Shown here: piece by piece, positions 4,137 to 19,365 of the stretch
Layout of the letters: the number at the start of each line of letters is the position of its first letter
Position numbering within the stretch: the stretch's first letter is position 1
The notes under the pieces: model-generated
Told to the model about the DNA's origin: nothing
Database searches by the model: none
Seen by the model: the letters and a program-made list of their open reading frames with translations, nothing else
Program-made: the position numbers and the translations under genes
Assembly: GCA_003210095.1 (NCBI GenBank)
Contig: QCNP01000001.1
Coordinates: 542,001 to 606,000 of the forward strand
Source: Pelagibacteraceae bacterium AG-426-E17
GTDB taxonomy: Bacteria > Pseudomonadota > Alphaproteobacteria > Pelagibacterales > Pelagibacteraceae
DNA length: 64,000 nt
Reading direction: 5' to 3'

Positions 4137-5107
4137 TATTTAATATAAGATCTAAAAGATTTCATTTTTTTATGAAAAGCTAATTTTTGAATATACTCTC
4201 TTGGATCCTTTTTTTTTATAATTGCTGATTTTGGAGTATTTATATAGTCATACGATCTAGTAGCAAGATATCTGAGCGCAGATCCTTTACAAAGTATATT
4301 TAGACAATCCTTCTCTTTTTTTTGTAATTTTCTTATCGTTTCGTAACCCTTAATCAATTGTAAAGTTTTATCTTTGTCATAGAAAAAAGTTTTTTTTCTT
4401 TTATTGAAACATAAGGCATTTATACATGTAGCTAATTCGTATGCTTCAAAATCATTTGACGAAAAATAAAAATCAATAAATCCTAAAAATTTTCCTTTAT
4501 GAAAAAATATATTATCTATAAATAGATCACCATGTATTATGTTTTTGGGCAATGTTTTTGGCCACCCTTGCTTAATTTCCATAAATGTATTTTGCATTTC
4601 CGAAACTAAATTTTTTGAAAGTTTATTAATTTTATTTTTATTTATACTGTTTAATAAATTTTTTATTTTAAGGGGGGAAAAAGAATTTTTCCTATATAAT
4701 CTAATTTTTCTTGAGGCTTTGTGCATTTTACCTATATTTTTACCTATAATGAATAAATCCTTTTTTTTTAATTTTTTCTTATCTTTACCTTTTAAAAAAC
4801 TGACTAGGCAGGCTTTTTTAGACTTTAAGTTAAATAAATATTTTCCTTCTTTACTTTTAAGTGGACTAGGACATTTAATTTTTAAATTTGATAATTTATC
4901 CATTAGTTTCATAAAAAATGGAAGATCTTTTTTTTTAACTCTTTTTTCAAATATCGTTAAAATATACTTTTGACTTTTAGTGGAAATAAGATAATTTGTA
5001 TTTTCTATTCCTTCTTTTATTCCATGGTAACTAATAATTTTTCCGATGTTAAAAAAATTTTGAATGTTAAATATATCTCTTTTGTTTATTTTGGTAAAAA
5101 CAGCCAT
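4136..5107 (-). CDS. thrB: Homoserine kinase (APH-fold ThrB)
   Basis: A 323-residue kinase of the aminoglycoside phosphotransferase fold, the type used for homoserine phosphorylation in Alphaproteobacteria. Motifs: N-terminal MAVFTKINKRDI, the GIENTNYLI strand, the catalytic loop NIIHGDLFIDNIFF (HGDxxxxN) and the metal-binding FIDFYF. It makes O-phosphohomoserine, the substrate of the nearby threonine synthase (1864-3249). It lies between ispH and rnhA with one-base overlaps on both sides, so translation is probably coupled. Lysine codons are extremely frequent, matching the AT bias of the window. An unrelated APH kinase is possible from sequence alone, but the context favours ThrB. Confidence 0.92.
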   Translation of the reverse strand: MAVFTKINKRDIFNIQNFFNIGKIISYHGIKEGIENTNYLISTKSQKYILTIFEKRVKKKDLPFFMKLMDKLSNLKIKCPSPLKSKEGKYLFNLKSKKACLVSFLKGKDKKKLKKKDLFIIGKNIGKMHKASRKIRLYRKNSFSPLKIKNLLNSINKNKINKLSKNLVSEMQNTFMEIKQGWPKTLPKNIIHGDLFIDNIFFHKGKFLGFIDFYFSSNDFEAYELATCINALCFNKRKKTFFYDKDKTLQLIKGYETIRKLQKKEKDCLNILCKGSALRYLATRSYDYINTPKSAIIKKKDPREYIQKLAFHKKMKSFRSYIK

Positions 5108-6051
5108 TAATTTAGCATACCGGGGATCTTAAAAAATACATTTTCCTTTACAATCTCAACCTCTTCGATCTGAACCTCGTATTTTTCCTTTATTTTACTT
5201 ATAAAATCTCGCACAATTATTTCAGGTGCCGATGCTCCTGAGGAAATACCGATAGTTTTACATTTACCGATTTTATCTAATGGTATTTCACTTTCTGAAT
5301 GAATTAATTCAGACTCATTGCATCCCGCTTTACTAGCAACCTCAACTAACCTTTTTGAGTTAGATGAATTTCTACTGCCAATTACAAAAAACATGTCACA
5401 AAGTTTGGCAATTTTTTTTACTGCAGCCTGTCTGTTTGTGGTAGCATAACAAATATCTTCTTTTTTTGGTTCACTAATTTTTGGGAACCTTTTCTTTAAA
5501 CATTCTATTATTTCTTTTGTGTCATCCACAGACAAGGTAGTTTGTGTTATAAATGCTAACTTTTCATCTTTTTTAAAAAACATTTTTTTTACGTCTTCTA
5601 TTGTTTCAACAAGCGTAATACCGTTTTCTGGAATTTGACCCATCGTTCCAATTACCTCTGGGTGTCCCTTGTGGCCAATTAATATTATATGATATCCACT
5701 TTTATACATATTTTCTGCTTCTCTATGAACCTTTGACACCAATGGACAAGTTGCATCAACATATCTCATGTTTAATTCCTCTGCTTCTTTTGGAACTTTC
5801 TTAGGGACGCCGTGTGCAGAAAATATCACAGGTCTTGATTTATCTTTAATTTCACTAATTTCTTCAACAAAAATTGCACCGATTTTCTTTAAACTCTCAA
5901 CAACATGTTTATTATGAACAATTTCGTGCCTTACGTACACAGGAGAACCAAATTTATCAATACTTTTTTTTACTATTTCAATTGCTCTATCTACTCCTGC
6001 ACAGAAGCCCCTTGGAGATGCTAAATATATTTTTAATTCATTTTTTCTCAT
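5107..6051 (-). CDS. ispH: 4-hydroxy-3-methylbut-2-enyl diphosphate reductase (IspH/LytB)
   Basis: A 314-residue iron-sulfur enzyme for the last step of the MEP pathway, producing IPP and DMAPP. The three cysteines of the [4Fe-4S] cluster are in GFCAGVDRAIEI, DATCPLVSKVH and DICYATTNRQ; SRNSSNSKRLVEVA and SSGASAPE complete the active site. The length is normal. The start overlaps the end of blh by 14 bases. It sits immediately downstream of the crtI-crtB-crtY-blh genes, so isoprenoid precursor supply and carotenoid/retinal synthesis are probably co-transcribed. A second MEP gene, ispE, is at 22367-23201. Confidence 0.97.
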   Translation of the reverse strand: MRKNELKIYLASPRGFCAGVDRAIEIVKKSIDKFGSPVYVRHEIVHNKHVVESLKKIGAIFVEEISEIKDKSRPVIFSAHGVPKKVPKEAEELNMRYVDATCPLVSKVHREAENMYKSGYHIILIGHKGHPEVIGTMGQIPENGITLVETIEDVKKMFFKKDEKLAFITQTTLSVDDTKEIIECLKKRFPKISEPKKEDICYATTNRQAAVKKIAKLCDMFFVIGSRNSSNSKRLVEVASKAGCNESELIHSESEIPLDKIGKCKTIGISSGASAPEIIVRDFISKIKEKYEVQIEEVEIVKENVFFKIPGMLN

Positions 6052-6937
6052 TTTTTTCTAAAAGATACTCAAGTAATATATGCGGAAAGGTTAAAGACGC
6101 CAAACCAATAAATATAATTTTCGATATAGCATTATCCAGTGCATAATAATTTTTTATAATAATTAAAGATATTATAAATAAAAAAGCAGTTAAAATTGTT
6201 AAAGGTATTGCTTTTAAAGCGAATTTCTTTAAACCCTCTATTAGTGATATTTTATTAAGTTCGTTGGACAGTTTAAATGAATGTCTAGCTGAATGCAAAA
6301 AGCAAAAATAAATTGTAAAAGCTAACAAAGGATTTAAAAAGTAATTTAAAACTAAAATCGAGATATAGTCCATAAGTAATAGAGACTTTATTTCAAAGTT
6401 TTTATTCAATGAGATTAAAATATTTGCCACAAAGCTTAATATTAAAATTGACCAAAGAAAGGCATTATTTATCAAAAAGCTGTCAAAAATTTCAAAATTT
6501 AAATATTCAAAAATAGCTAGTGTCTCGGATTTATGGAAAATTAATGGAGCTACAATAATCACACACCCCTTTAAGAAATATATCGATTCAAAATTAGACG
6601 AACTGTTAATGAATTCTGAATCCTCTTTACCAAAATGATAGCTTGCAACTATCAAAAATATCATCAATATTAATTTTGGGAATATAAGCCAAAATATAAC
6701 TACAGATAATCCTACAAAAATATATGAAACGTAAAATAATGAGATGGACCTATATTTATAAATTTTTAAAAGTTTTGCACCTTTAAGATGATCAAGCGCA
6801 CCATGTGATATACCCAAACTTAATATTAAAAATAAGCAAAAAATTAAAGGGTCATTATTTCTCAAGAATTCAAATGCCGACAAAAAAATACATAAATTGA
6901 AGAAAATTAAAGAATGATAATAATTAATCTTGTTCAT
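6038..6937 (-). CDS. blh: Brp/Blh family beta-carotene 15,15'-dioxygenase
   Basis: A 299-residue, highly hydrophobic protein with about eight membrane segments. It carries the histidine motifs of the Brp/Blh family: GISHGALDHLKG near the N-terminus, YHFGKED, HSARHSFKL and FPHILLEYLLE at the C-terminus, thought to bind the catalytic iron. The family cleaves beta-carotene into two retinal molecules, the chromophore of proteorhodopsin. It follows crtY by 4 bases and overlaps ispH, fitting a retinal operon. No rhodopsin gene is in the window. Family assignment is firm; activity is inferred from family and neighbours. Confidence 0.93.
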   Translation of the reverse strand: MNKINYYHSLIFFNLCIFLSAFEFLRNNDPLIFCLFLILSLGISHGALDHLKGAKLLKIYKYRSISLFYVSYIFVGLSVVIFWLIFPKLILMIFLIVASYHFGKEDSEFINSSSNFESIYFLKGCVIIVAPLIFHKSETLAIFEYLNFEIFDSFLINNAFLWSILILSFVANILISLNKNFEIKSLLLMDYISILVLNYFLNPLLAFTIYFCFLHSARHSFKLSNELNKISLIEGLKKFALKAIPLTILTAFLFIISLIIIKNYYALDNAISKIIFIGLASLTFPHILLEYLLEKNEKK

Positions 6938-6941
6938 TATA

Positions 6942-8006
6942 TTAAAAAATATTTTTTATAAATAGCCACTTTGGCATTTTAAGAATTACCGTTAAGTCAT
7001 CTAAAATATTACTTTTATTCGACAAAAATTTAATTACTGATTTTGAAGGCGCTTGAAACATATTAAAGAATATATTTGGCATTTTTTCTGGGTATCTATT
7101 TAAAACTTTTAAAAAAATATTATCTAAAAATTGGTATTTCTTCCCTATATCATAAATTTTTGCATTTTTAATATTTTCTATCTTATTAACAATATATCTA
7201 GAATGATCTTGAATATTTAAAAAGGTATATCCTGTACTTAACCTTGTCATACCACCAGCAGATCCTATATTAATTGTATTATTTTTTTTTTCGAATTTTG
7301 GAAAAAACAAAGGTATTGCTCCTTGCTCTTTGTATCTAATTTCATAATTTTTAATCTTTAAAATATTTTTAATATAATCTTTAAGCTGAGTATCGTAATC
7401 ATTTAATGTATTATTGTTCAGTCTAGACAACCAAGTTGTTTCAATTAATGCCTTATTTTTTGCAAAAGGAAGAGTGTAAAAAAAATGAACATTTTTTCTT
7501 TGATCACAATTAAAATCCATTAAATTAAAAATTTTATCATCAAAAATTTTTTTTTCGGTTTTTATTTCCACACCTTTAAAATGTTGCCATAGGCTCAATT
7601 CACTATTACTTTTAGGTGGGATGCTGTTGAATATTATAGAGTTTTGAAGATTAAGATTCTCAGTATTTTTGTAAAATTTAATATTTTTATTTAAACTTAT
7701 TCGCTTAAGAATTTTTTCATAAAAAAGGCCGCTATCAATAGTTTGATAAGGGTAGTCTTTATTTTTAATTTCGTGATGGCCTGTTTCTGTATTTACTGAA
7801 AAATTATCCCAACTTTTGATAACACAATCCTCAAAATTGTGATCTATAACCTTCCAAAATGACCAAGTCTTATCTCTTTTATAGTCACTCCTTGTTTCTA
7901 TTATTGCAAGAGTTTTATTTTTCAACTTGTTTTTAGCATCTAATTCATACGCCAGAGACAAGCCAGCGCATCCGCCTCCAATAATAATGTAATTAAAATC
8001 TTTCAT
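6942..8006 (-). CDS. crtY: Lycopene beta-cyclase
   Basis: A 354-residue flavoprotein of the CrtY/CrtL lycopene cyclase family. The N-terminal dinucleotide-binding motif is YIIIGGGCAGLSLAYEL. Further landmarks are KTWSFW, the YPYQTIDSGLFY segment, and the late GSAGGMTRLSTGYTFLNIQ, which is diagnostic of the family. It cyclises both ends of lycopene to beta-carotene, the substrate of Blh. The start codon overlaps the end of crtB by 14 bases, so it is coupled with it. It is slightly shorter than many homologues but all main motifs are present. Confidence 0.94.
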   Translation of the reverse strand: MKDFNYIIIGGGCAGLSLAYELDAKNKLKNKTLAIIETRSDYKRDKTWSFWKVIDHNFEDCVIKSWDNFSVNTETGHHEIKNKDYPYQTIDSGLFYEKILKRISLNKNIKFYKNTENLNLQNSIIFNSIPPKSNSELSLWQHFKGVEIKTEKKIFDDKIFNLMDFNCDQRKNVHFFYTLPFAKNKALIETTWLSRLNNNTLNDYDTQLKDYIKNILKIKNYEIRYKEQGAIPLFFPKFEKKNNTINIGSAGGMTRLSTGYTFLNIQDHSRYIVNKIENIKNAKIYDIGKKYQFLDNIFLKVLNRYPEKMPNIFFNMFQAPSKSVIKFLSNKSNILDDLTVILKMPKWLFIKNIF

Positions 8007-8841
8007 TCAAATTAATTTCCTTACTAATTTCCATATGTTCTTCATTAGTTAAATGAATATCTGATTTAGAGAATATTAATAAAAATAGATCAAATATACT
8101 AAATATTGTCTGTTTTATTTTGCCAATTTTATTAACAAAAATTTTTCCAGATTTATTATAATTTTCTAAATTTTTTTTTCTTAATATATTGTTTCCAATT
8201 TCTCTATAAACTCTACGTGCTACCAAAATTGCAAATCTATTTACTAGTGGAATTTCTTTTATCGATTTAAAAGAGCTTTTATAGAATAGTTCAGCAACAC
8301 CCAATGTCTCTTTAATTTTTATAAAATCATGATCTATATATTTTCTATTTCTACTACTATCCTCTACAACATCTCTTGCTATATTGGTTAACTGCATTGC
8401 TATACCAAGATCTACCGCTGATCTAAGAGCAATTTTTGAGTTTACTTTTAATATTTTTGCCATCATTAGTCCTACTGTGCCAGCAACTCTGTAAGAATAC
8501 ACAAGTAACTCCCTCTTTGTTTTAAATTCAATACTTTCTCTAATATCAGACTCAATACCATCAAAAAGATCCAGAACTATTTGTTCTGAAATATTGAATT
8601 TATTAATAATATTATCAATGTTTTTAATCAAAATATTTTCAAAGTTTCTTTCAATGAAATCTTTTTTTATTTTATTAAATTTTTTTTTTTTTGAATCCAA
8701 AGAGGTGTTTTCATCTGCTATGTCATCTAAGGTTCTACAAAAATCATAAAGACTCGACCCGTTTTCGAACGTCTGCCTAGCTAAAAAAAAACCTGCCCAA
8801 CTAAATGATTTCGCGTGAGTTGAGATTAGGTTGTTTGACAT
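7993..8841 (-). CDS. crtB: Phytoene synthase
   Basis: A 282-residue trans-isoprenyl diphosphate synthase of the squalene/phytoene synthase family, joining two GGPP molecules head to head into phytoene. The first aspartate-rich motif is DFCRTLDDIADE (DxxxD, about residues 33-40), the second is QLTNIARDVVEDSSRNR. The CrtB signature YSYRVAGTVGLMM lies between them. Its start overlaps the stop of crtI by one base. The GGPP synthase (crtE) needed upstream is absent from this cluster and window, so GGPP must come from another locus. Confidence 0.95.
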   Translation of the reverse strand: MSNNLISTHAKSFSWAGFFLARQTFENGSSLYDFCRTLDDIADENTSLDSKKKKFNKIKKDFIERNFENILIKNIDNIINKFNISEQIVLDLFDGIESDIRESIEFKTKRELLVYSYRVAGTVGLMMAKILKVNSKIALRSAVDLGIAMQLTNIARDVVEDSSRNRKYIDHDFIKIKETLGVAELFYKSSFKSIKEIPLVNRFAILVARRVYREIGNNILRKKNLENYNKSGKIFVNKIGKIKQTIFSIFDLFLLIFSKSDIHLTNEEHMEISKEINLNERF

Positions 8842-10298
8842 TACAATATTTTATCTAATACTTTGGCAGAAGATAGCACACCAGGCACTCCCGCACCAGG
8901 ATGAGTACCTGCACCAACGAAATATAATCCTTTGTAAATTTCTGACTTGTTGTGAAAACGAAAGTATGCAGATTGAGTAAATTTTGGCTGGATTGAAAAA
9001 CCTGATCCAAACTTTGTATTTAAATCATTTTCAAAATAATCAGGAGATAAATAAAAATCCTCAACTATATTTCTTTCAAGATCTGGCAATAAATCATTCT
9101 GCATTTTTCTTATTACAAGTTTTTTAATTTTTTCTCCTTCTATAGACCAATCAATATTTGATTGATTATTTGGAACAGGCACTAAAACATAAAAACAATC
9201 ATTTCCCTCAGGAGCCATTGATTTATCCGTGGCAGTTGGTCTATGTAAATAATAACTTATATCATCGTTTAGTTTTTTCTTATTAAATATATCATCAAGA
9301 TGTTCTTTGTACTTATTTCCAAATTTAATAGTATGATGCTCTACATCTTTATAAACTTTTTTTGTTCCAAAATAATAAACAAACAAACCCATTGAATAAT
9401 CCATTCTATTTCTTTTCCAATTGAAAAATAAATTTCCTTTTTTTTTATTTAATAATTTTTCATACACTCCTGGTGGATCAGCGTTACAAATAACATTATC
9501 TGCTAATAATTTTTCACCGTTATTTAATTCAACACCCTTTATATTTTTGTTCTCCTCAATAATTTTTTTGACCTCCACTCCTTTAATCACTTTTATATTC
9601 TCTTCTATCATTAAAGTTTCTAACCCTTTAACAATATTACCTGTGCCACCCATGGAATAGTGTATCCCCCATTTTTTTTCCAAATATAATATTAACCCAT
9701 ATATTGACGTAGTTGTAAAAGGGTTTCCTCCCACTAAAAGTGGATGCATGCTAAATATTCTTCTCAGCTTTTCATTTTTGACGTATGAAGAGACAAGTGA
9801 GTAAACAGATTTATAACTTTTAAGTTTTAGCAAAGACGGAATCTGCTTAAGCATAAAAAAAGGTTTATTGAAAGGGACGTCAGAAAGTTCCATATAACCC
9901 TTATCGAAAATTTTTTTCGTAAAGTATACTAAATTGAAATAACCTTTTACATCTTCTTTAGAAACTTCGGAAATTTGCTTCTTCATATCTTCATCATTTC
10001 CAGAGTAATTAAATTTATAACCATCCTCGAAAACAAATTGATACCAAGTTTGTAATGGTTTTATATTTAAGTAATCTTCAGCTTTTTTTCCAAATAGTTG
10101 AAATAATTCATCAATCAAATAAGGTGCTGTAATTACAGTGGGTCCAGCATCAAATTTAAAACCATTTTTTTCAAAAACTCTTGCTCTACCACCTAAATCT
10201 TTGTGTTTTTCAACTAAAGTAACATCATGCCCTTTAGCTCTAAGTCTTAAAGCGGCCGATAGCCCACCAAATCCTGATCCAACAATTACAGATTTCAT
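8841..10298 (-). CDS. crtI: Phytoene desaturase
   Basis: A 485-residue FAD enzyme of the CrtI family that converts phytoene to lycopene by successive desaturations. The N-terminus holds the FAD-binding motif VIVGSGFGGLSAALRLRAKG and the ARVFEKNGFKFDAGPTVI stretch; the C-terminus ends with GLYFVGAGTHPGAGVPGVLSSAK, the bacterial-type CrtI signature. Length is normal. It is the first carotenoid gene after atpF, 43 bases downstream on the same strand, and no convincing separate promoter was recognised in that gap. The four genes crtI-crtB-crtY-blh turn GGPP into retinal. Confidence 0.96.
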   Translation of the reverse strand: MKSVIVGSGFGGLSAALRLRAKGHDVTLVEKHKDLGGRARVFEKNGFKFDAGPTVITAPYLIDELFQLFGKKAEDYLNIKPLQTWYQFVFEDGYKFNYSGNDEDMKKQISEVSKEDVKGYFNLVYFTKKIFDKGYMELSDVPFNKPFFMLKQIPSLLKLKSYKSVYSLVSSYVKNEKLRRIFSMHPLLVGGNPFTTTSIYGLILYLEKKWGIHYSMGGTGNIVKGLETLMIEENIKVIKGVEVKKIIEENKNIKGVELNNGEKLLADNVICNADPPGVYEKLLNKKKGNLFFNWKRNRMDYSMGLFVYYFGTKKVYKDVEHHTIKFGNKYKEHLDDIFNKKKLNDDISYYLHRPTATDKSMAPEGNDCFYVLVPVPNNQSNIDWSIEGEKIKKLVIRKMQNDLLPDLERNIVEDFYLSPDYFENDLNTKFGSGFSIQPKFTQSAYFRFHNKSEIYKGLYFVGAGTHPGAGVPGVLSSAKVLDKIL

Positions 10299-12672: not shown

Positions 12673-15069
12673 TTATGCAACCATGCTCTCTGCTTTCTCT
12701 AGGTCAACAGCAACAAGTTGGCTTATACCTTTCTCTGGCATTGTAACCCCATAAAGTCTGTTCATTTTTGACATAGTAAGAGCGTGATGAGTTACAATAA
12801 TAAATTTTGTCTTTGTTATTCTTACAAGTTCATCTAATAAACTACAAAATCTTGTTACATTTGCGTCATCTAATGGCGCGTCTACTTCATCTAAAACACA
12901 AATAGGTGCTGGATTTGTTAAAAAAACTGCAAAGATTAAGGACAAGGCAGTTAGTGCCTGTTCACCTCCAGATAACAAAGTAATTGATTGCAATCTTTTT
13001 CCTGGTGGGCTTACTAGCATTTCTAAACCAGCGTTTAAAGGATCATCAGAGTCCAACAATTCTAACTTTGCACTTCCACCGTTAAAGAGTTTAGTGTAAA
13101 CCTCATTAAATTTTCTATTTACTTTCTCAAAAGCATCTAAAAGCCTTTCCCTACCTTTCTGATTAAGTTCATTAATACTTTCTTTAAGTTTTGAAATCGC
13201 AGAAACTAAATCAGATCTATCCTTTTCCATTTTTTTTATTTCAATCTCATATTTACTTGTCTCTTCATCAGCTTTTAAATTAACAGAACCTAACTTTTCT
13301 CTTTCCCTTTTCTTTTTATCAAGTAACTCCTCCTGTTCTAAAGAATCTGGCAATTCTTGATCTAACTGTAGATTAGAAAATTCAAACAGATTATTTTCAT
13401 TTAAGTTAAGCTCATCATCAATTCTTTCAAGTAAATCTGATTTTCTCTTGTTTAAACCCTCAATTGTAGCTGCAGAGCTTGCCTTCCTTTCTCTTATACC
13501 AATCGAATTTTCTTTTATATCATTTAGTTTATTTCTTTTAACTGAAATATTATGTTCACCTTCCTCGATAATTTTATAGTATTTATCTCTATCTAATTCA
13601 GAAATTCTTAAACTTTCCGTTAGCTGTCCCTTTTTTTCGGCTTGGCTTTTAGGCTTGCTTTCTAAAATTTCAAGCTGCTTTAAATTTTTATTTTTTCTTG
13701 TCAGTAACTGTTTAATCGTATCTTGTGATTTGAATAACAATTTTTTCCAGCTGTCAATCTCTTTATCAATATTTTCAATTCTTTCAGATCTTTTAATTGA
13801 CTCATTTTTTATATTTTGATTTTTGCTGTAGTCCTCGGCATATGATTGAACAACGACCTCTAATTTTTCTATCTCTTTTAATGCATCTTGTCTTTTGTCT
13901 AAATTAATTAACTCTTTAATTTTATTAATGCAAAACTTTAGTTTTTTATCTGTATCTTTTAAATCATGATTAGATTGTTTTTCAGTTTCATAATATTTAG
14001 AATCAATTTCTACTAATTCTCTTTTTTCCTCTCGAAGTCTTTTTTCATTTGAGTTTGCATCTATTACTATGCTTTTTTCTCTATCCTCATCCTCATCTAT
14101 AATCTTTAAATTATCTTTTAAACTTTCAATTTCATTTTGAATTCTATTATTTTCTTCGTCCAAATTTTGTATTTCTATATTTAGTCTCTGAATTTTTGAT
14201 AAGTTTTCAAAATTCATTTCTTTAATTGGATTAATTTTCTTTGACTCTATATCTATTTCCGATTCTAATAAGGACATCTGGTTATTAATTTTTTCGAACT
14301 CATCATCAGAGTCTGTATTTATTTCCTCTTCTAATTTGATTTCTTTTTCTAATTCTTGTAATTTTAGATAATATAATCCAGCTTCAATCTTTTTAATTTC
14401 ATTGGATATTAATTTGTATTTATTTGCTTCTTCAGCCTGTTTTTTTAAATTTGCGAGCTGTTTTTCTTGTTGTCTTCTTAATTCATCTGCTCTTTTTAAA
14501 TTATTTTCTGCTGCGTTTAATCTTATTTCAGCTTCATGTCTTCTAGCATGTAGTCCTGATATACCAGCTGCTTCTTCTAATATGGCTCTCCTATCATTTG
14601 GTTTTGCTGTTACAAGAGAACCAATTCTACCTTGGCTTATTAAAGAGGGAGAGTGAGCTCCTGTAGACAAATCAGCAAAAAACATTTGTGCATCTTTAGC
14701 TCTCACTTCTTTTCCATTAATTGAAAATTTAGAACCTTTATCTTTTTCAATTTTTCTTTTTATCTCAATGTTTTTTATGCCGCTATACTTACCAACATTC
14801 TCTAAACTATCATTGATTAGGTTTAGTGTAACTTCAGCAATATTTTTTGATGGTTTATTCGAAGTTCCAGAAAAAATTACATCTTCCATGCCAGATCCCC
14901 TCATACTCTTTGCTGATGTCTCTCCCATACACCATCTTAAAGACTCAACTATATTTGATTTTCCACAGCCATTTGGACCAACTATACCTGTTAGTCCATT
15001 TTCTATTGATAGATCTGTTTTTTCAGCAAATGATTTAAAACCATTTAACTGGATTTTTTTAAATTCCAT
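12673..15069 (-). CDS. smc: Chromosome segregation protein SMC, short and apparently hingeless
   Basis: A 798-residue SMC ATPase for chromosome compaction. The N-terminal head has Walker A GPNGCGKSN (residues 31-39) and the Q-loop region SLISQGRIGSLV. The C-terminal head has the signature LSGGEQ (699-704) and Walker B ICVLDEVDAPLDD (about 723-735). Between them lies about 480 residues of charged coiled coil. Usual bacterial SMCs are about 1150 residues with a globular, glycine-containing hinge in the middle; I see no hinge-like segment here. RecN or SbcC are less likely, because the head motifs and the dciA-dsbA-smc context point to SMC. No scpA or scpB gene is in the window. Confidence 0.9.
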   Translation of the reverse strand: MEFKKIQLNGFKSFAEKTDLSIENGLTGIVGPNGCGKSNIVESLRWCMGETSAKSMRGSGMEDVIFSGTSNKPSKNIAEVTLNLINDSLENVGKYSGIKNIEIKRKIEKDKGSKFSINGKEVRAKDAQMFFADLSTGAHSPSLISQGRIGSLVTAKPNDRRAILEEAAGISGLHARRHEAEIRLNAAENNLKRADELRRQQEKQLANLKKQAEEANKYKLISNEIKKIEAGLYYLKLQELEKEIKLEEEINTDSDDEFEKINNQMSLLESEIDIESKKINPIKEMNFENLSKIQRLNIEIQNLDEENNRIQNEIESLKDNLKIIDEDEDREKSIVIDANSNEKRLREEKRELVEIDSKYYETEKQSNHDLKDTDKKLKFCINKIKELINLDKRQDALKEIEKLEVVVQSYAEDYSKNQNIKNESIKRSERIENIDKEIDSWKKLLFKSQDTIKQLLTRKNKNLKQLEILESKPKSQAEKKGQLTESLRISELDRDKYYKIIEEGEHNISVKRNKLNDIKENSIGIRERKASSAATIEGLNKRKSDLLERIDDELNLNENNLFEFSNLQLDQELPDSLEQEELLDKKKREREKLGSVNLKADEETSKYEIEIKKMEKDRSDLVSAISKLKESINELNQKGRERLLDAFEKVNRKFNEVYTKLFNGGSAKLELLDSDDPLNAGLEMLVSPPGKRLQSITLLSGGEQALTALSLIFAVFLTNPAPICVLDEVDAPLDDANVTRFCSLLDELVRITKTKFIIVTHHALTMSKMNRLYGVTMPEKGISQLVAVDLEKAESMVA

Positions 15070-15077
15070 TTTTACTA

Positions 15078-15659
15078 TTATAACAGTTTTTCAATAGCTT
15101 TTTGTAAATTTTTGAAAGTTAAAGGTTTTTCAAACTTTTTCTCATTTATAATTATAGTTGGAGTTGAGTTCACATCATATTTTTTAACTGCTTCGACTCG
15201 ATCATTTAATATATGATCTTCCAAAACTTCATTTGCAAAACATTTTTTTGTATCAATTTTATAATTGCCCTCTTTAATAGTTGTATTTAAGTTTGAATTT
15301 ATCTCATTGATCGTTGAGCCTTTCGCCCATTTTTTTTGGTTCAAATAAAGGTGATGTAGTAATTCAGAATTTCCATCATTTTTACAATGCGAAAGCTTAG
15401 AAGCATTCAAAGCAGCCATATCTAAAGGGAAATTTTTGTATTCTATAGAAATTAATCCAGTGTCTATAAATTCTTTTTTTAACTCAGGAAAAATATCATT
15501 ATGAAAATCTGCGCAATACGAACAAGTTAGAGATTCATACACCAAAATTTTTATTTTTGAGTTTGAATTCCCGTCTATTATTGGCTTTATATTTTCAGCT
15601 CTAAGCTCACCAATGTTGAGAGCAATAAGAATTAAAAAGATATATCTTAGTTTTTTCAT
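15078..15659 (-). CDS. DsbA-like thiol:disulfide oxidoreductase, exported
   Basis: A 193-residue protein with an N-terminal signal peptide (about residues 1-21), then a thioredoxin-fold DSBA domain. The active site is Cys46-Ser-Tyr-Cys49 in ESLTCSYCADFH; the cis-proline loop is VNSTPTIIIN. It probably introduces or isomerises disulfides in exported proteins, perhaps including the cytochrome and oxidase assembly proteins encoded here, which is inference. It overlaps the end of the DciA-like gene by 4 bases and lies 8 bases upstream of smc, the usual alphaproteobacterial arrangement. Confidence 0.92.
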   Translation of the reverse strand: MKKLRYIFLILIALNIGELRAENIKPIIDGNSNSKIKILVYESLTCSYCADFHNDIFPELKKEFIDTGLISIEYKNFPLDMAALNASKLSHCKNDGNSELLHHLYLNQKKWAKGSTINEINSNLNTTIKEGNYKIDTKKCFANEVLEDHILNDRVEAVKKYDVNSTPTIIINEKKFEKPLTFKNLQKAIEKLL

Positions 15660-16129
15660 CTTGATTTAAATACTTTAATTAGATTTGATAAGGATCTCTT
15701 TAGACTTTCATCTTTAACATTTTTAATGTTTGAATGAAACTTTTTTTTTGACTCATAAGATATTTCTTCTTCATAGTACGTTTCATCTCTATCGAAAGTA
15801 ACAATTTTAATTTTTTCTAATACTTTATAACCAAAGTATGCGTTAATTTTATCTATTATTTTATTTTTTGAATATTCTATATCGATTTCTTTACCTCTTT
15901 TTATCATTATTTCGAGCGTTGAATTATTAATTTTATTTGAATTTTTATATTTGATTGGAAAACTAAATTTAAATAAATCATTACCAACAAAATGTTTCCA
16001 ATTATCCAAAATATCAGGATATATAGTTCCTTTTTTATTAATAATTTTTTTTATTTTTGTGGGTAAAGTGTCTTTAAAAGATCTTAATCCTTGAATGACT
16101 TTAGATCTCTGATTAGAATTAAAATTCAT
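15656..16129 (-). CDS. DciA-like DUF721 family protein
   Basis: A 157-residue protein whose middle (about residues 35-110: ILDNWKHFVGNDLFKFSFPIKYK...STLEIMIKRG) matches the DUF721 fold, an RNA-binding-like KH-type domain. In bacteria without DnaC, DUF721 proteins (DciA) load the replicative helicase DnaB. The C-terminus is lysine/serine rich. It is the first gene of the long minus-strand string and starts at a CATG shared with the divergent mutY, so its start codon and mutY's overlap by two bases. Family assignment is by pattern and neighbourhood; the helicase-loader role is known from the family, not shown here. Confidence 0.8.
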   Translation of the reverse strand: MNFNSNQRSKVIQGLRSFKDTLPTKIKKIINKKGTIYPDILDNWKHFVGNDLFKFSFPIKYKNSNKINNSTLEIMIKRGKEIDIEYSKNKIIDKINAYFGYKVLEKIKIVTFDRDETYYEEEISYESKKKFHSNIKNVKDESLKRSLSNLIKVFKSR

Positions 16130-17117
16130 GAGTAAATCAACTATATCAAAAAAAATTTTATTTTGGTACGATAATAATAAGAGAATTCTTCCATGGAGAA
16201 AAAATACTTCTAAGGAACAAAAACTTTATTTCACGTTGGTTAGTGAGTTTATGTTGCAACAAACTCAAGTTTCTACTGTAATTCCTTACTTTAAAAGATT
16301 TGTACAAAGAATTCCAAATTTTAAAAAGTTGTCCAAAACAAATGACCAAACACTAATGAAGTTGTGGGAAGGATTGGGTTACTATTCTAGAGCTAGAAAT
16401 TTAAAAAAATCTGCAATCATGATTATAAATAAATTTGGTGGAATTTTACCATCTAATTTTGAGGATTTAAAATCTTTGCCTGGAGTCGGTGACTATACGT
16501 CTACTGCAGTAATGGCTATTGCTTTCAATGAAAAATTTATTCCTTTAGATGGAAATATTGAAAGAATTCTTAAAAGAGTTTTATTTCTAAGAAGCGATAA
16601 AGATATATCAAAAAAAAATATGAAAATTTCAAAAAATTTTTTTGGCTCATCAGAAAGAGCAAGTGATTACGCTCAAGCTATTATGGAATTAGGTGCTTTA
16701 GTATGTAGGCCTGTTTCTCCATTATGTGGTAAGTGTCCTATAAGTACAAATTGTATTTCATATAATCGAAAAGATTTTTCTTTAATAAAAAAAACAAAAA
16801 AAAACAAGATAAAATATTTTGAGGTAAATATTTATATGAATGAAAATAAAATGTTATTAGTTAGAAATAATAAATTTAACTTTCTTAAAAATTTATTAAT
16901 TTTTCCGATGAACGAAATAGATAAGTCAAAATTTAACTCTTCGCTAAAAGTAAAAACAAAAATTAAGATATCTAATATAGATATGAATATTATAATTAAT
17001 AAAAATAAAATTAAATCAACAAATAAAGGTGTAATTTTGAATCGAAAGAATATAGCTAGTGAAGTAATACCATCTTTTACAAAAAAATTACTTAGAGTAG
17101 CTTCAAGCAATGTATGA
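16128..17117 (+). CDS. mutY: A/G-specific adenine glycosylase MutY
   Basis: A 329-residue base-excision repair enzyme that removes adenine mispaired with 8-oxoguanine. Catalytic Glu40 is in SEFMLQQTQVS, the helix-hairpin-helix is LPGVGDYTS (about 117-125), and the catalytic Asp141 is in PLDGNIERIL. Cluster cysteines are 193, 200, 203 and 209 (CX6CX2CX5C). The C-terminal Nudix-like recognition domain is present but short and divergent. Its ATG shares the CATG with the divergent DciA gene. It overlaps the following monooxygenase gene by 4 bases (ATGA). Confidence 0.96.
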   Translation: MSKSTISKKILFWYDNNKRILPWRKNTSKEQKLYFTLVSEFMLQQTQVSTVIPYFKRFVQRIPNFKKLSKTNDQTLMKLWEGLGYYSRARNLKKSAIMIINKFGGILPSNFEDLKSLPGVGDYTSTAVMAIAFNEKFIPLDGNIERILKRVLFLRSDKDISKKNMKISKNFFGSSERASDYAQAIMELGALVCRPVSPLCGKCPISTNCISYNRKDFSLIKKTKKNKIKYFEVNIYMNENKMLLVRNNKFNFLKNLLIFPMNEIDKSKFNSSLKVKTKIKISNIDMNIIINKNKIKSTNKGVILNRKNIASEVIPSFTKKLLRVASSNV

Positions 17118-18253
17118 AAAAAATTGGAATTATCGGAGCAGGAATTTCAGGATTATTCATCGCCAATCTTTTTAAAAAAAATCCGAAATATCAAGTATCG
17201 ATTTTTGATAAAAAAAACTCTCTCGATCTAAATAGAGGGTATGGTGTACAATTATCTGTAAATAGTGTTAAACTTCTAAATAAAATTGGATTTAACAAAT
17301 TAAAAAAAGATGAAAAATTTTATCCAGAAAAAATAAATTTTTACTCAAAAAAAGTTCAAGATAAAATATGCGAATTAGATATAACTGAATTTAATTCAAA
17401 TGATTGTAAGTATACTACTTTGAAAAGATCTACCTTGATCAATTTTCTAAAAAAAGATTTAGAGGATTTGATCAAAACAAATTACAGTATTTCGAAAATT
17501 GATCAAGAGCAAGAAAAAATAAAACTTACCTTTGAAAATGAAGAAACTCACGAATGTGATTTTTTAATTATTTCAGACGGGGTCTTTTCAAAAAGTAGAA
17601 ATCTTGTTTCAAATAACCAAATTCAACCAAAGTACAACGATACTTTGGCTATAAGGGGAATGATACCTGCAAAAAACATAATTGATAAAAAGAATATTTT
17701 ATTATTTTTGGGCTCTAATTTTCATCATGTAATTTATCCTGTTTCTTCGAGTGAAGATTTGAATTTAATAGCTATAATGAAGTATAAACTTTCAGCAGAT
17801 GAACAGAAAAATTACTCATTGTTTGACAATAAATCATTTATACAAAAAATCTTGAATAATATTCCAATGGAAAACAAAGAATTTTTTAGTAATATTAAAG
17901 AATTAAAAATATACCCTGTCTTTGTGAGTGATAATTTTTTTGAAGTAAAAAATAAGAACATTTATTTTATAGGAGATGCTTTTTTTGCTTTTCCACCATC
18001 ATTTGCCCAAGGTGCATCTCAGTCTATAGAAGGTGCATATGAATTATTTGTTTGTATAGAAAATAATTCCAATACTAACTTTTTTAAAAATAGAGTTAAT
18101 AAAACAAAAATGGTCAACAATAGATCAAAATTAAATCAGTTAACCTTTCATTTATCAAATCCTTTAACCGTTTATCTTAGAAATATTTTTTTAAAAAAAT
18201 TAGTAAAAAATAAAAGTTTTTTAGAAAGTTATTTAGGAAAAATTTATAGATAA
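17114..18253 (+). CDS. FAD-dependent monooxygenase (UbiH/salicylate hydroxylase-like)
   Basis: A 379-residue group A flavoprotein monooxygenase. The N-terminal FAD/NAD-binding motif is IGIIGAGISGLFIANL (residues 3-18), the DG motif region is LIISDGVFSKSRN, and the second FAD motif is FIGDAFFAFPPSFAQGASQSIEGA. Such enzymes hydroxylate aromatic rings, for example in ubiquinone synthesis or aromatic degradation. The substrate cannot be read from the sequence. It is coupled to mutY by an ATGA overlap and its 3' end overlaps the convergent ccrM by 10 bases. It lacks any visible membrane anchor. Confidence 0.85.
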   Translation: MKKIGIIGAGISGLFIANLFKKNPKYQVSIFDKKNSLDLNRGYGVQLSVNSVKLLNKIGFNKLKKDEKFYPEKINFYSKKVQDKICELDITEFNSNDCKYTTLKRSTLINFLKKDLEDLIKTNYSISKIDQEQEKIKLTFENEETHECDFLIISDGVFSKSRNLVSNNQIQPKYNDTLAIRGMIPAKNIIDKKNILLFLGSNFHHVIYPVSSSEDLNLIAIMKYKLSADEQKNYSLFDNKSFIQKILNNIPMENKEFFSNIKELKIYPVFVSDNFFEVKNKNIYFIGDAFFAFPPSFAQGASQSIEGAYELFVCIENNSNTNFFKNRVNKTKMVNNRSKLNQLTFHLSNPLTVYLRNIFLKKLVKNKSFLESYLGKIYR

Positions 18254-19323
18254 TTTTTTGATAAGAATTTTTGTCTTAAATTATCTATTGGCACGAAAGT
18301 GTTTCCTAATTCACAATGCCAATAAGTCCATCCATTACAGCTTTCAGCTCCTAAAATTGTAGCTGCAACCTTATGTATCGAACCTTCAGTTTGAGCATGT
18401 TTGATACTCCCATCAACCATAATTTTCGCACTATTTTTCTTTTTATTATCGAAAATAATGGTGCCAGGCTTTATTATTCCCAATTCAACCAATGAACCAA
18501 AAGGTATTCTTGGTTTGGATTTATTATTTTTGAGCGTATCTAAATAATGATCCTCTATTGGTTTTGTATTCTTCAATCTTTGTTCGGCAGCTTTGAAATA
18601 GGATTTTTCTTTTTCTATACCATAATAATTTCTACTCAATTTTTTTGCAACTGTTGCAGTTGTGCCTGATCCCAAAAATGGATCAAGAATTAAATCATTT
18701 TTATTTGAAGTTGCTAATAAAATCCTGTGAAGTAAAGCTTCTGGTTTTTGTGTAGAATGCACTTTCTTTCCATTTTTTTTTAAACGCTCTGTTCCGTTAC
18801 AAATAGGCAAATCCCAATTAGATCTCATTTGCAAATCATCATTTAAACATTTTAATGATTGGTAATTAAAAGTATATTTTGAATTTTCTGATTTTGAGGC
18901 CCAGATTAATGTTTCGTGAGCATTAGTAAATCTTGTTCCTCTAAAATTAGGCATTGGATTTTTTTTGTTCCAAATTACATCGTTTAAAATCCAAAAACCT
19001 AAATTTTGAATAGCTGTACCAACTCTAAATATATTATGATAACTTCCTATAACCCATATGGCTCCATTCTTTTTTAAAATTCTCTTGCACTCACTTAACC
19101 ACTTATATGTGAAATCATCGTATTTCTTAAAGCTTCCAAATTGATCCCATTTATCATTTACTGCATTAACTTCTGATCTATCTGGTCTAGTTAGCTTATT
19201 TTTTAGTTGAAGGTTATAAGGTGGGTCTGCAAAAACTAAATCGAAAGTCTCATCTGGAATTTTTTTTAATTCTTTAAGACTATCTCCGTTAATAATTTTG
19301 TTTTTTAAGTCTAACTCTATCAT
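18244..19323 (-). CDS. ccrM: CcrM-type adenine-N6 DNA methyltransferase (GANTC)
   Basis: About 359 residues from the ATG at 19323. Motif IV is FADPPYNLQ (Asp-Pro-Pro-Tyr, residues 33-36), and the SAM-binding motif is DPFLGSGTTATVAKK. The C-terminal extension (IPFGSLVELGIIKPG... and AATILGAESCNGWTYWHCE) is the domain typical of cell-cycle methylases of the CcrM family, which methylate GANTC. A TTG at 19365 would add 14 residues, but that stretch coincides with a well-formed promoter, so ATG 19323 is preferred. No restriction enzyme lies nearby, consistent with a solitary regulatory methylase. Upstream neighbours on the same strand are rnhB and udg. Confidence 0.93.
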   Translation of the reverse strand: MIELDLKNKIINGDSLKELKKIPDETFDLVFADPPYNLQLKNKLTRPDRSEVNAVNDKWDQFGSFKKYDDFTYKWLSECKRILKKNGAIWVIGSYHNIFRVGTAIQNLGFWILNDVIWNKKNPMPNFRGTRFTNAHETLIWASKSENSKYTFNYQSLKCLNDDLQMRSNWDLPICNGTERLKKNGKKVHSTQKPEALLHRILLATSNKNDLILDPFLGSGTTATVAKKLSRNYYGIEKEKSYFKAAEQRLKNTKPIEDHYLDTLKNNKSKPRIPFGSLVELGIIKPGTIIFDNKKKNSAKIMVDGSIKHAQTEGSIHKVAATILGAESCNGWTYWHCELGNTFVPIDNLRQKFLSKNYL

Positions 19324-19336
19324 TTTTAAAGAAACA

Positions 19337-19365
19337 ATTAGACTCCAGGTCGGAGTCCAGGTCAA
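19337..19365 (-). promoter_or_regulatory. Candidate ccrM promoter containing two GANTC sites
   Basis: On the minus strand TTGACC (19365-19360), a 17-base spacer and TCTAAT (19342-19337) form a good sigma70-type promoter 13 bases ahead of the ccrM ATG. Two GANTC sites lie in it: plus-strand GAGTC at 19353-19357 inside the spacer and GACTC at 19341-19345 overlapping the -10 box. GACTCC/GGAGTC (19341-19346, 19352-19357) are an inverted repeat, and TCCAGGTC occurs twice, 12 bases apart (19344, 19356). A third GACTC is at 19412-19416, in the end of rnhB. Methylation-sensitive self-control, as known for ccrM in Caulobacter, is inference. Confidence 0.65.

Follow-up and report, generated by a model that had tools for sequence, protein, structure and literature searches.

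The chromosome-organising SMC ATPase encoded by the smc gene of the window (the whole 64,000-nucleotide stretch of DNA that was analysed) is a protein of 798 residues from which the hinge is missing. The SMC hinge normally ties two copies together and is regarded as a defining SMC part, central to ring-entrapment models. The closest named relatives of the window's genome (G000; 1.15 Mb, 99% complete) are Pelagibacteraceae according to a contig scan, and the order is called Pelagibacterales here on the strength of these relatives' names. Pelagibacterales-type bacteria are generally reckoned among the most abundant marine bacteria. That a hinge-less form implies another way of pairing or a different mode of action, as an earlier note on this DNA proposed, is a reasonable expectation, and the balance of probability tips towards an ordinary chromosomal SMC, acting with ScpAB, whose copies would be held together at the heads and by the kleisin rather than by a hinge.

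The smc frame begins with ATG on the minus strand and runs through its 798 residues with zero internal stops. Walker A (GPNGCGKSN), signature (LSGGEQ) and Walker B (LDEVDAPLDD) were all found intact, in agreement with the earlier description of both ATPase head motifs. Against the NCBIfam model SMC_prok_B (TIGR02168), the protein reaches 650 bits with a cut-off of 567, an equivalog-level match that identifies it as an SMC orthologue. The alignment to the model is split in two, and its better part pairs residues 292–790 with profile positions 694–1181 of 1181. In the whole-genome search, the two halves of the gene were scored separately, each below the cut-off, and no second SMC-scale match to TIGR02168 was found in the window's genome, the two matches listed being these halves. 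Among Pfam families, SMC_N is present in the protein and SMC_hinge was not reported for it. The parts of the gene and its neighbours are collected in Table 1.

Table 1. Positions in the window of the smc gene, of the parts of its product and of neighbouring genes.
Feature	Position	Strand	Basis
smc, 798-residue SMC ATPase without hinge domain	12673..15069	-	Open reading frame; TIGR02168, 650 bits; hinge HMM; AlphaFold
ATPase head, N-terminal half (residues 1–172, Walker A GPNGCGKSN)	14554..15069	-	Sequence; predicted secondary structure
N-terminal coiled-coil arm (residues 173–389)	13903..14553	-	AlphaFold helix; 211–260 of lower confidence
R330, mid-arm anchor	14080..14082	-	R in 79 of 81 full-length SMCs; head-side length conserved
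Variable tip (residues 371–415)	13825..13959	-	Alignment; conservation 0.60, the lowest part
Predicted hairpin turn (residues 390–392)	13894..13902	-	AlphaFold; conservation symmetry centre 389–391
C-terminal coiled-coil arm (residues 393 to ~640)	13150..13893	-	AlphaFold
W441, mid-arm anchor on the returning strand	13747..13749	-	W in 77 of 81 full-length SMCs
ATPase head, C-terminal half (residues ~641–798; LSGGEQ, LDEVDAPLDD)	12676..13149	-	Sequence; AlphaFold; structure search
AtpI-like gene, beginning directly after the smc stop codon	12403..12672	-	Open reading frame list; Pfam; conserved block
DsbA-like thioredoxin-fold protein, upstream neighbour of smc	15078..15659	-	Pfam; conserved block
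DciA homologue, conserved neighbour	15656..16129	-	Pfam; conserved block
MutY-like glycosylase (HhH-GPD), divergent conserved neighbour	16128..17117	+	Pfam; conserved block
DNA methylase (N6_N4_Mtase) with RAMA domain, near smc	18244-19365	-	Pfam; conserved in many relatives

A whole-genome search with Pfam PF06470 gave no match in the window's genome, and since the Caulobacter control was likewise missed, this model was replaced by a purpose-made alphaproteobacterial hinge HMM and a hinge alignment (A3). The hinge was located by aligning 32 full-length alphaproteobacterial SMCs with 7 short ones; it ends in an RWDG motif, which is present in all 81 full-length SMCs of the working set. Trained on 41 of these 81, the HMM scored the 40 held out as a test at 53–167 bits, found no match in the window protein, and gave nothing above 0.1 bits in 60 rows of Pelagibacterales or MarineAlpha6 type, which correspond to 53 distinct ones once five duplicates, the window's own locus (L003) and the truncated L012 are subtracted. 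The best 30 loci of an order-wide sweep, with frames of up to 891 residues, were negative as well. Glycine and proline together make up at most 7% of any 60 residues in the middle of the window SMC, the full-length median being 23%, on a measure whose groups overlap in that the lowest full-length value (8.3%) is also the highest hingeless value. The earlier note's picture of 798 residues without a globular hinge is thus borne out by the HMM and by the AlphaFold prediction, which has no globular tip; a hinge fold in the middle region is predicted in neither of the two proteins modelled.

The hinge might in principle be supplied in trans by another gene, and a split gene is conceivable. The A3 alignment comprises 19 rows, including one taken from G085, and because Pfam SMC_hinge matches 17 of the 19 segments when these are scanned singly, the missing element is a genuine SMC hinge; a search of the PDB with the A3 profile returned one weak SMC match (E 0.0062). 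As a positive control, A3 found matches in 102 of 144 genomes of the alphaproteobacterial class, 106 of which have an SMC-scale TIGR02168 match by our count. The four of these 106 without a hinge match are the window's genome, G143 of the same family, and G074 and G096, in which smc is present only as fragments on separate contigs. Searched in six frames at E ≤ 0.01, none of the 247 genomes of the order (Pelagibacterales), and none of the 149 good ones, gave an A3 match, yet the same profile detects even the hinges of G085 and G195, divergent as they are, the former being the source of that one row. A hinge encoded elsewhere in the genome was rejected at this sensitivity, and its supply in trans is very improbable. 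By the same count, 38 of the 144 class genomes, mostly small ones, have no SMC-scale TIGR02168 match, and SMC frames longer than 1400 residues occur in five other genomes of the class.

The short protein could also be an artefact, either of an assembly deletion or of a decaying smc gene, and interrupted smc frames are indeed found in a few relatives (L012, L013). The frame in the window is intact, however, the heads and arm belts are strongly conserved, and the same architecture is present in 53 distinct loci, represented together with five duplicates by 58 hingeless rows. All four motif strings tried are carried by 54 of these 58 rows, two of the others lacking an exact SQGR and two lacking both SQGR and LSGGEQ, and the complete hingeless proteins of the aligned set are 798–864 residues long. 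Among the order genomes that are at least 90% complete, 149 of 154 have TIGR02168 matches, which are weak only in G033, G233, G286, G292 and G325, leaving 144 with matches of SMC scale. Complete order frames among the matches listed extend from about 798 to 891 residues by an open-frame count, with two shorter frames (G042, G273) among them, and of the 61 genomes in a smaller survey, many of them incomplete, 54 have the protein. In the contig scan, 10 of 80 loci were dropped for want of a complete SMC by the extraction rule: L034 and L036, both hinge-bearing, were missed by the signature pattern, and L012, L013, L028 and L032 are broken or partial. Five of the dropped loci are from Pelagibacteraceae and have no hinge in the parts present, while four of the other five bear a hinge and L111 is too partial to judge. 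With the hingeless architecture recurring across relatives and in order-wide frames, an assembly deletion was rejected; the relatives in which the earlier note had envisaged a full-length SMC are themselves hingeless, and an artefact of either kind is hardly conceivable.

The loss extends beyond the hinge itself. Across the 81 full-length alphaproteobacterial SMCs, the mid-arm anchors R330 and W441 are nearly invariant (Table 1), as is D327, found in 80. Among the shorter proteins aligned with these 81, L064 has V in place of R330 and two f2 proteins have L in the W441 column, where alignments A1 and A2 pair W. In seven Pelagibacterales representatives, R330 lies 328–330 residues from the N-terminus, with a full-length median of 330 (n = 81), and W441 lies 356–361 residues from the C-terminus, with a full-length median of 359. 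The stretch between R330 and W441 has a full-length median of 464 residues, divided into about 179 of arm, 113 of hinge (a figure resting on our own bounds) and 173 of arm. Where the hinge is absent, this span is reduced to 111–173 residues in the seven representatives and to 128 in L100, another hingeless SMC, and in the hinge-bearing L064 and L065 it is 179 and 186 (38–45 of arm, the hinge and 29 of arm). Because the distances on the head side of the anchors are unchanged, the change in length is distal. The head-proximal half is the same length as in a full-length SMC, the distal arms have shrunk and the hinge is gone, with tip residues 371–415 occupying the place that distal arms and hinge take in other alphaproteobacteria. 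The earlier note had looked for a hinge at positions 300–500 and seen none; its absence there stands, but the region is not simply hinge-less, the distal coiled coil having disappeared too. In window coordinates, D327 and R330 lie at 14080–14091 and W441 at 13747–13749, all measured length variation falling beyond these residues. For comparison, the arm lengths of prokaryotic Smc proteins cluster at 238, 341, 515 and possibly 163 and 423 residues according to the sections of PMC5344682 drawn on here.

Modelled by AlphaFold2 from 22 sequences (the protein and 21 relatives), the window SMC consists of a helix at residues 173–389, a turn at 390–392 and a returning helix at 393–553, without any tip domain. 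The C-terminal arm has predicted breaks at 554–575 and 592–599 and its last helix continues to 662, the arm's end at about 640 being a boundary of our choosing. Confidence in this model is moderate, with a mean pLDDT of 77.1, a pTM of 0.47 and head blocks down to 51; pLDDT is 82–91 over residues 271–510, 58–69 over 211–260 and 59–65 over 521–580. For an 857-residue relative, the turn is predicted at 419–421 with a second break at 445–447 and lower confidence near the tip, which in this class is longer and broken into several helices. Both predictions are of single chains, and both proteins are hingeless. The conservation of the two strands follows the same fold, correlating best when folded about residues 389–391 (r 0.76; the scanned centres have a median of −0.05 and a 95th percentile of 0.55), about 420–422 in the 857-residue class (r 0.87; 95th percentile 0.79) and about 391 in seven other members of the family (r 0.66; 95th percentile 0.50). 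In family f2 (seven rows) the best centre is 489, which is the edge of the scan and not credible. Prediction and, independently, conservation symmetry thus both give the window SMC the topology of an antiparallel coiled-coil hairpin. Between 798- and 857-residue proteins, the extra residues are split 29 and 30 between the strands in six of seven aligned pairs, the seventh being ambiguous at the turn, and in an 812/859 pair they are split 29 and 18; the paired 29/30 inserts argue for a hairpin under structural constraint. The tip-length classes of 798 and 857 residues belong to one genus and are interspersed on the head tree (for instance L087/L014 and L011/L030), which demands at least three switches, branch support aside, and suggests recombination or repeated paired change.

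How two such hairpins might be joined is the point on which the readings differ. The hairpin tip may have replaced the hinge, two tips forming a helical bundle so that the ring is closed and the mechanism conserved, and this is a real possibility, though one we hold to be less probable than pairing at the heads. The inserts shared between the strands, the longer multi-helix tip of the 857-residue class, with its lower confidence, and a tip hydrophobicity slightly above that of the arms (0.387 vs an arm mean of 0.31, with 9.5% of arm windows equally high) would all accord with it. Mean conservation among 13 SMCs of 798 residues, in contrast, is lowest at the tip, at 0.60, compared with 0.78–0.81 in the arms and 0.90–0.96 in the heads (0.90 over residues 1–172), and the tip sequence differs from genus to genus. 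A poorly conserved and variable tip speaks against a specialised pairing site there. A CXXC zinc hook in the arms is found in none of the 58 hingeless rows, which counts against tip pairing and on which grounds a replacement zinc hook was rejected. A conserved belt below the tip (residues ~336–365 and ~416–445) was considered as a new pairing site and not counted, since the same section of arm is aligned and anchored in full-length SMCs and the belt is at least partly ancestral.

Work in Bacillus subtilis bears on the choice. According to the sections of PMC5344682 drawn on here, cells whose Smc hinge had been exchanged for a Rad50 zinc hook grew normally on rich medium, and the authors describe what kind of dimerisation domain is used as 'surprisingly uncritical'; a strain without the Smc hinge region was called an smc null. 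The tolerated exchange, taken by itself, was also weighed in favour of the head-end reading. That an unrelated dimeriser is tolerated and a deletion is not favours pairing at the tips, and the null phenotype lowers confidence in dimerisation at the head end. The engineered Mini-Smc and Smc(Zh), which were tested in vivo, share with the window SMC their shortened arms and an altered dimerisation end, but the functional forms described in those sections keep either a hinge or a zinc hook, unlike the window SMC. With this evidence taken together, pairing through the heads and ScpA is favoured over pairing through the tips, narrowly.

The search for scpA and scpB that the earlier note had suggested was positive, both genes being intact and adjacent in the window's genome (ScpA E 1.3e-13, ScpB E 3.7e-50), where ParB is also present. 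Across 61 genomes, many of them incomplete, ScpB was found in 47 and ScpA in 45 (17 and 16, respectively, of the 19 good ones), the good genomes without a match in this search being G042 and G044 for both proteins and G033 for ScpA; all 11 further genomes searched gave an ScpB match, among them G085, G195 and the genomes of L100 and L101. The presence of ScpA and ScpB genes does not amount to proof of binding to the window SMC. Reasoning from general SMC knowledge on complex formation, head-end dimerisation and DNA path, the head-end reading would run as follows. The protein would be the vertically inherited SMC of a Pelagibacterales-type alphaproteobacterium that has lost both outer arms and hinge, and most likely still acts as SMC–ScpAB on the chromosome. 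Each SMC would comprise a head with a short antiparallel coiled-coil rod ending in a plain helical hairpin. Two heads would pair through ATP, ScpA would connect one SMC at its neck with the other at its cap, ScpB joining via ScpA, and it is the head end, not a constitutive hinge, that would hold the pair. DNA would sit mainly in the kleisin compartment and in a clamp above the engaged heads, and tip–tip or arm–arm contacts, if any, would probably be weak or transient. The wider proposal, that the whole order runs its chromosome with an SMC–ScpAB whose distal end is never joined into a ring, that clamp and kleisin suffice, that condensin function in nature can do without hinge and distal arm, and that the hinge was lost after arm shortening, possibly twice (in Pelagibacterales and in L100/L101), is tentative and, as a whole, rather doubtful.

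Rad50/SbcC and RecN likewise combine an ABC-type head with an antiparallel coiled coil and have no SMC hinge, and this resemblance, with weak family matches to Rad50 and RecN, raises the alternative that the window SMC has left condensation for a Rad50/RecN-like role in repair or for some other role. Such a change is improbable: the 650 bits for SMC_prok_B stand against about 33 or less for Rad50 models and 18 for RecN, the zinc-hook CXXC at the apex is wanting in 58 of 58 rows, the smc locus is conserved, ScpA and ScpB are kept, and the window's genome has no other SMC-scale TIGR02168 match. In a Foldseek search with the window model, the PDB entry matched best is 5xei, a prokaryotic Smc head with coiled coil, and the top matches include Smc heads solved with ScpA as well as Smc5/6 and condensin, with Rad50 chains at ranks 6 and 8.

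Compared with the bacterial SMC–ScpAB represented by TIGR02168, the window SMC has the same head motifs, head-proximal arm length and neighbourhood, the same ScpA, ScpB and ParB genes, and a long antiparallel coiled-coil arm, though a shorter one than usual. It differs in being without the central hinge and in its arms beyond R330 and W441, which are about 179 and 173 residues in the former and about 55–85 per strand in hingeless proteins. The idea of a hinge-less SMC is already in print: Sussfeld et al. (2025; PMC12153180) described a 'hinge-less' SMC in an oceanic cluster placed within Actinobacteria (Actinomycetes), weighing a paralogue (thought unlikely) or an unknown lineage as its origin. 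Their protein, abundant in their data, resembles that of the window in having an SMC head and coiled coil without hinge or CXXC and in being marine, but it is assigned to Actinobacteria whereas the window SMC lies in an alphaproteobacterial neighbourhood, the comparison being one of descriptions; the main text of PMC12153180 contains neither Pelagibacter nor SAR11 nor ScpA. A search of open-licence PMC found no paper on a Pelagibacterales hinge-less SMC, and the portion of PMC7203096 drawn on does not treat it; the search likewise turned up neither the case in alphaproteobacteria nor its retained partners nor the series of distal-only reductions. A natural orthologue that is accompanied by ScpA, ScpB and ParB and has neither hinge nor outer arm makes the need for a closed ring directly testable, and full-length, short-armed hinge-bearing and hingeless SMCs at one conserved locus amount to matched natural constructs. 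From these bacteria it could be learned whether an SMC machine works without a closed ring.

The hinge may have been lost once or twice, and the trees fit either history. On the tree of heads, 51 Pelagibacterales rows form one branch (100/99), and the hingeless L100 and L101 join the short-armed, hinge-bearing L064 and L065 (96/84), with long-branch warnings. This grouping would mean two losses, that of L100/L101 being one that may be independent of the main group. A single clade of all hingeless rows was not rejected (p-AU 0.41). In a quick tree built from six neighbouring proteins, L080, L100/L101, L064/L065 and Pelagibacterales meet at one fork with no clear branching order. The hingeless SMCs of L100 and L101 are both of 817 residues, one labelled MarineAlpha6 and the other (L100) Pelagibacteraceae. 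L064 and L065, from G085 and G195, are natural mini-SMCs in which the hinge is kept and the distal arms fall short of those of other alphaproteobacteria by about 134–144 residues per strand. Alphaproteobacterial like the window SMC, of 865 and 881 residues, and similar to it in neighbourhood and short distal arms, they differ in keeping a divergent hinge (76 and 96 bits).

The order CcrM–MutY–DciA–DsbA–SMC–AtpI–AtpB is common to hingeless and to many hinge-bearing loci, which argues for vertical descent, and is only partly kept in other loci such as those of some Rhodobacter and Rhizobium relatives. In the window, the DNA methylase of Table 1, which we take to be CcrM-like, stands at one side of this block, and ATP synthase-type genes come after the AtpI-like gene at the other. 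Downstream of the smc–ATP synthase block, the minus strand carries a set of carotenoid/retinal-type genes together with LytB (5107–10298), the set comprising a desaturase-like protein of amine-oxidase fold, phytoene synthase, lycopene cyclase and beta-carotene dioxygenase.
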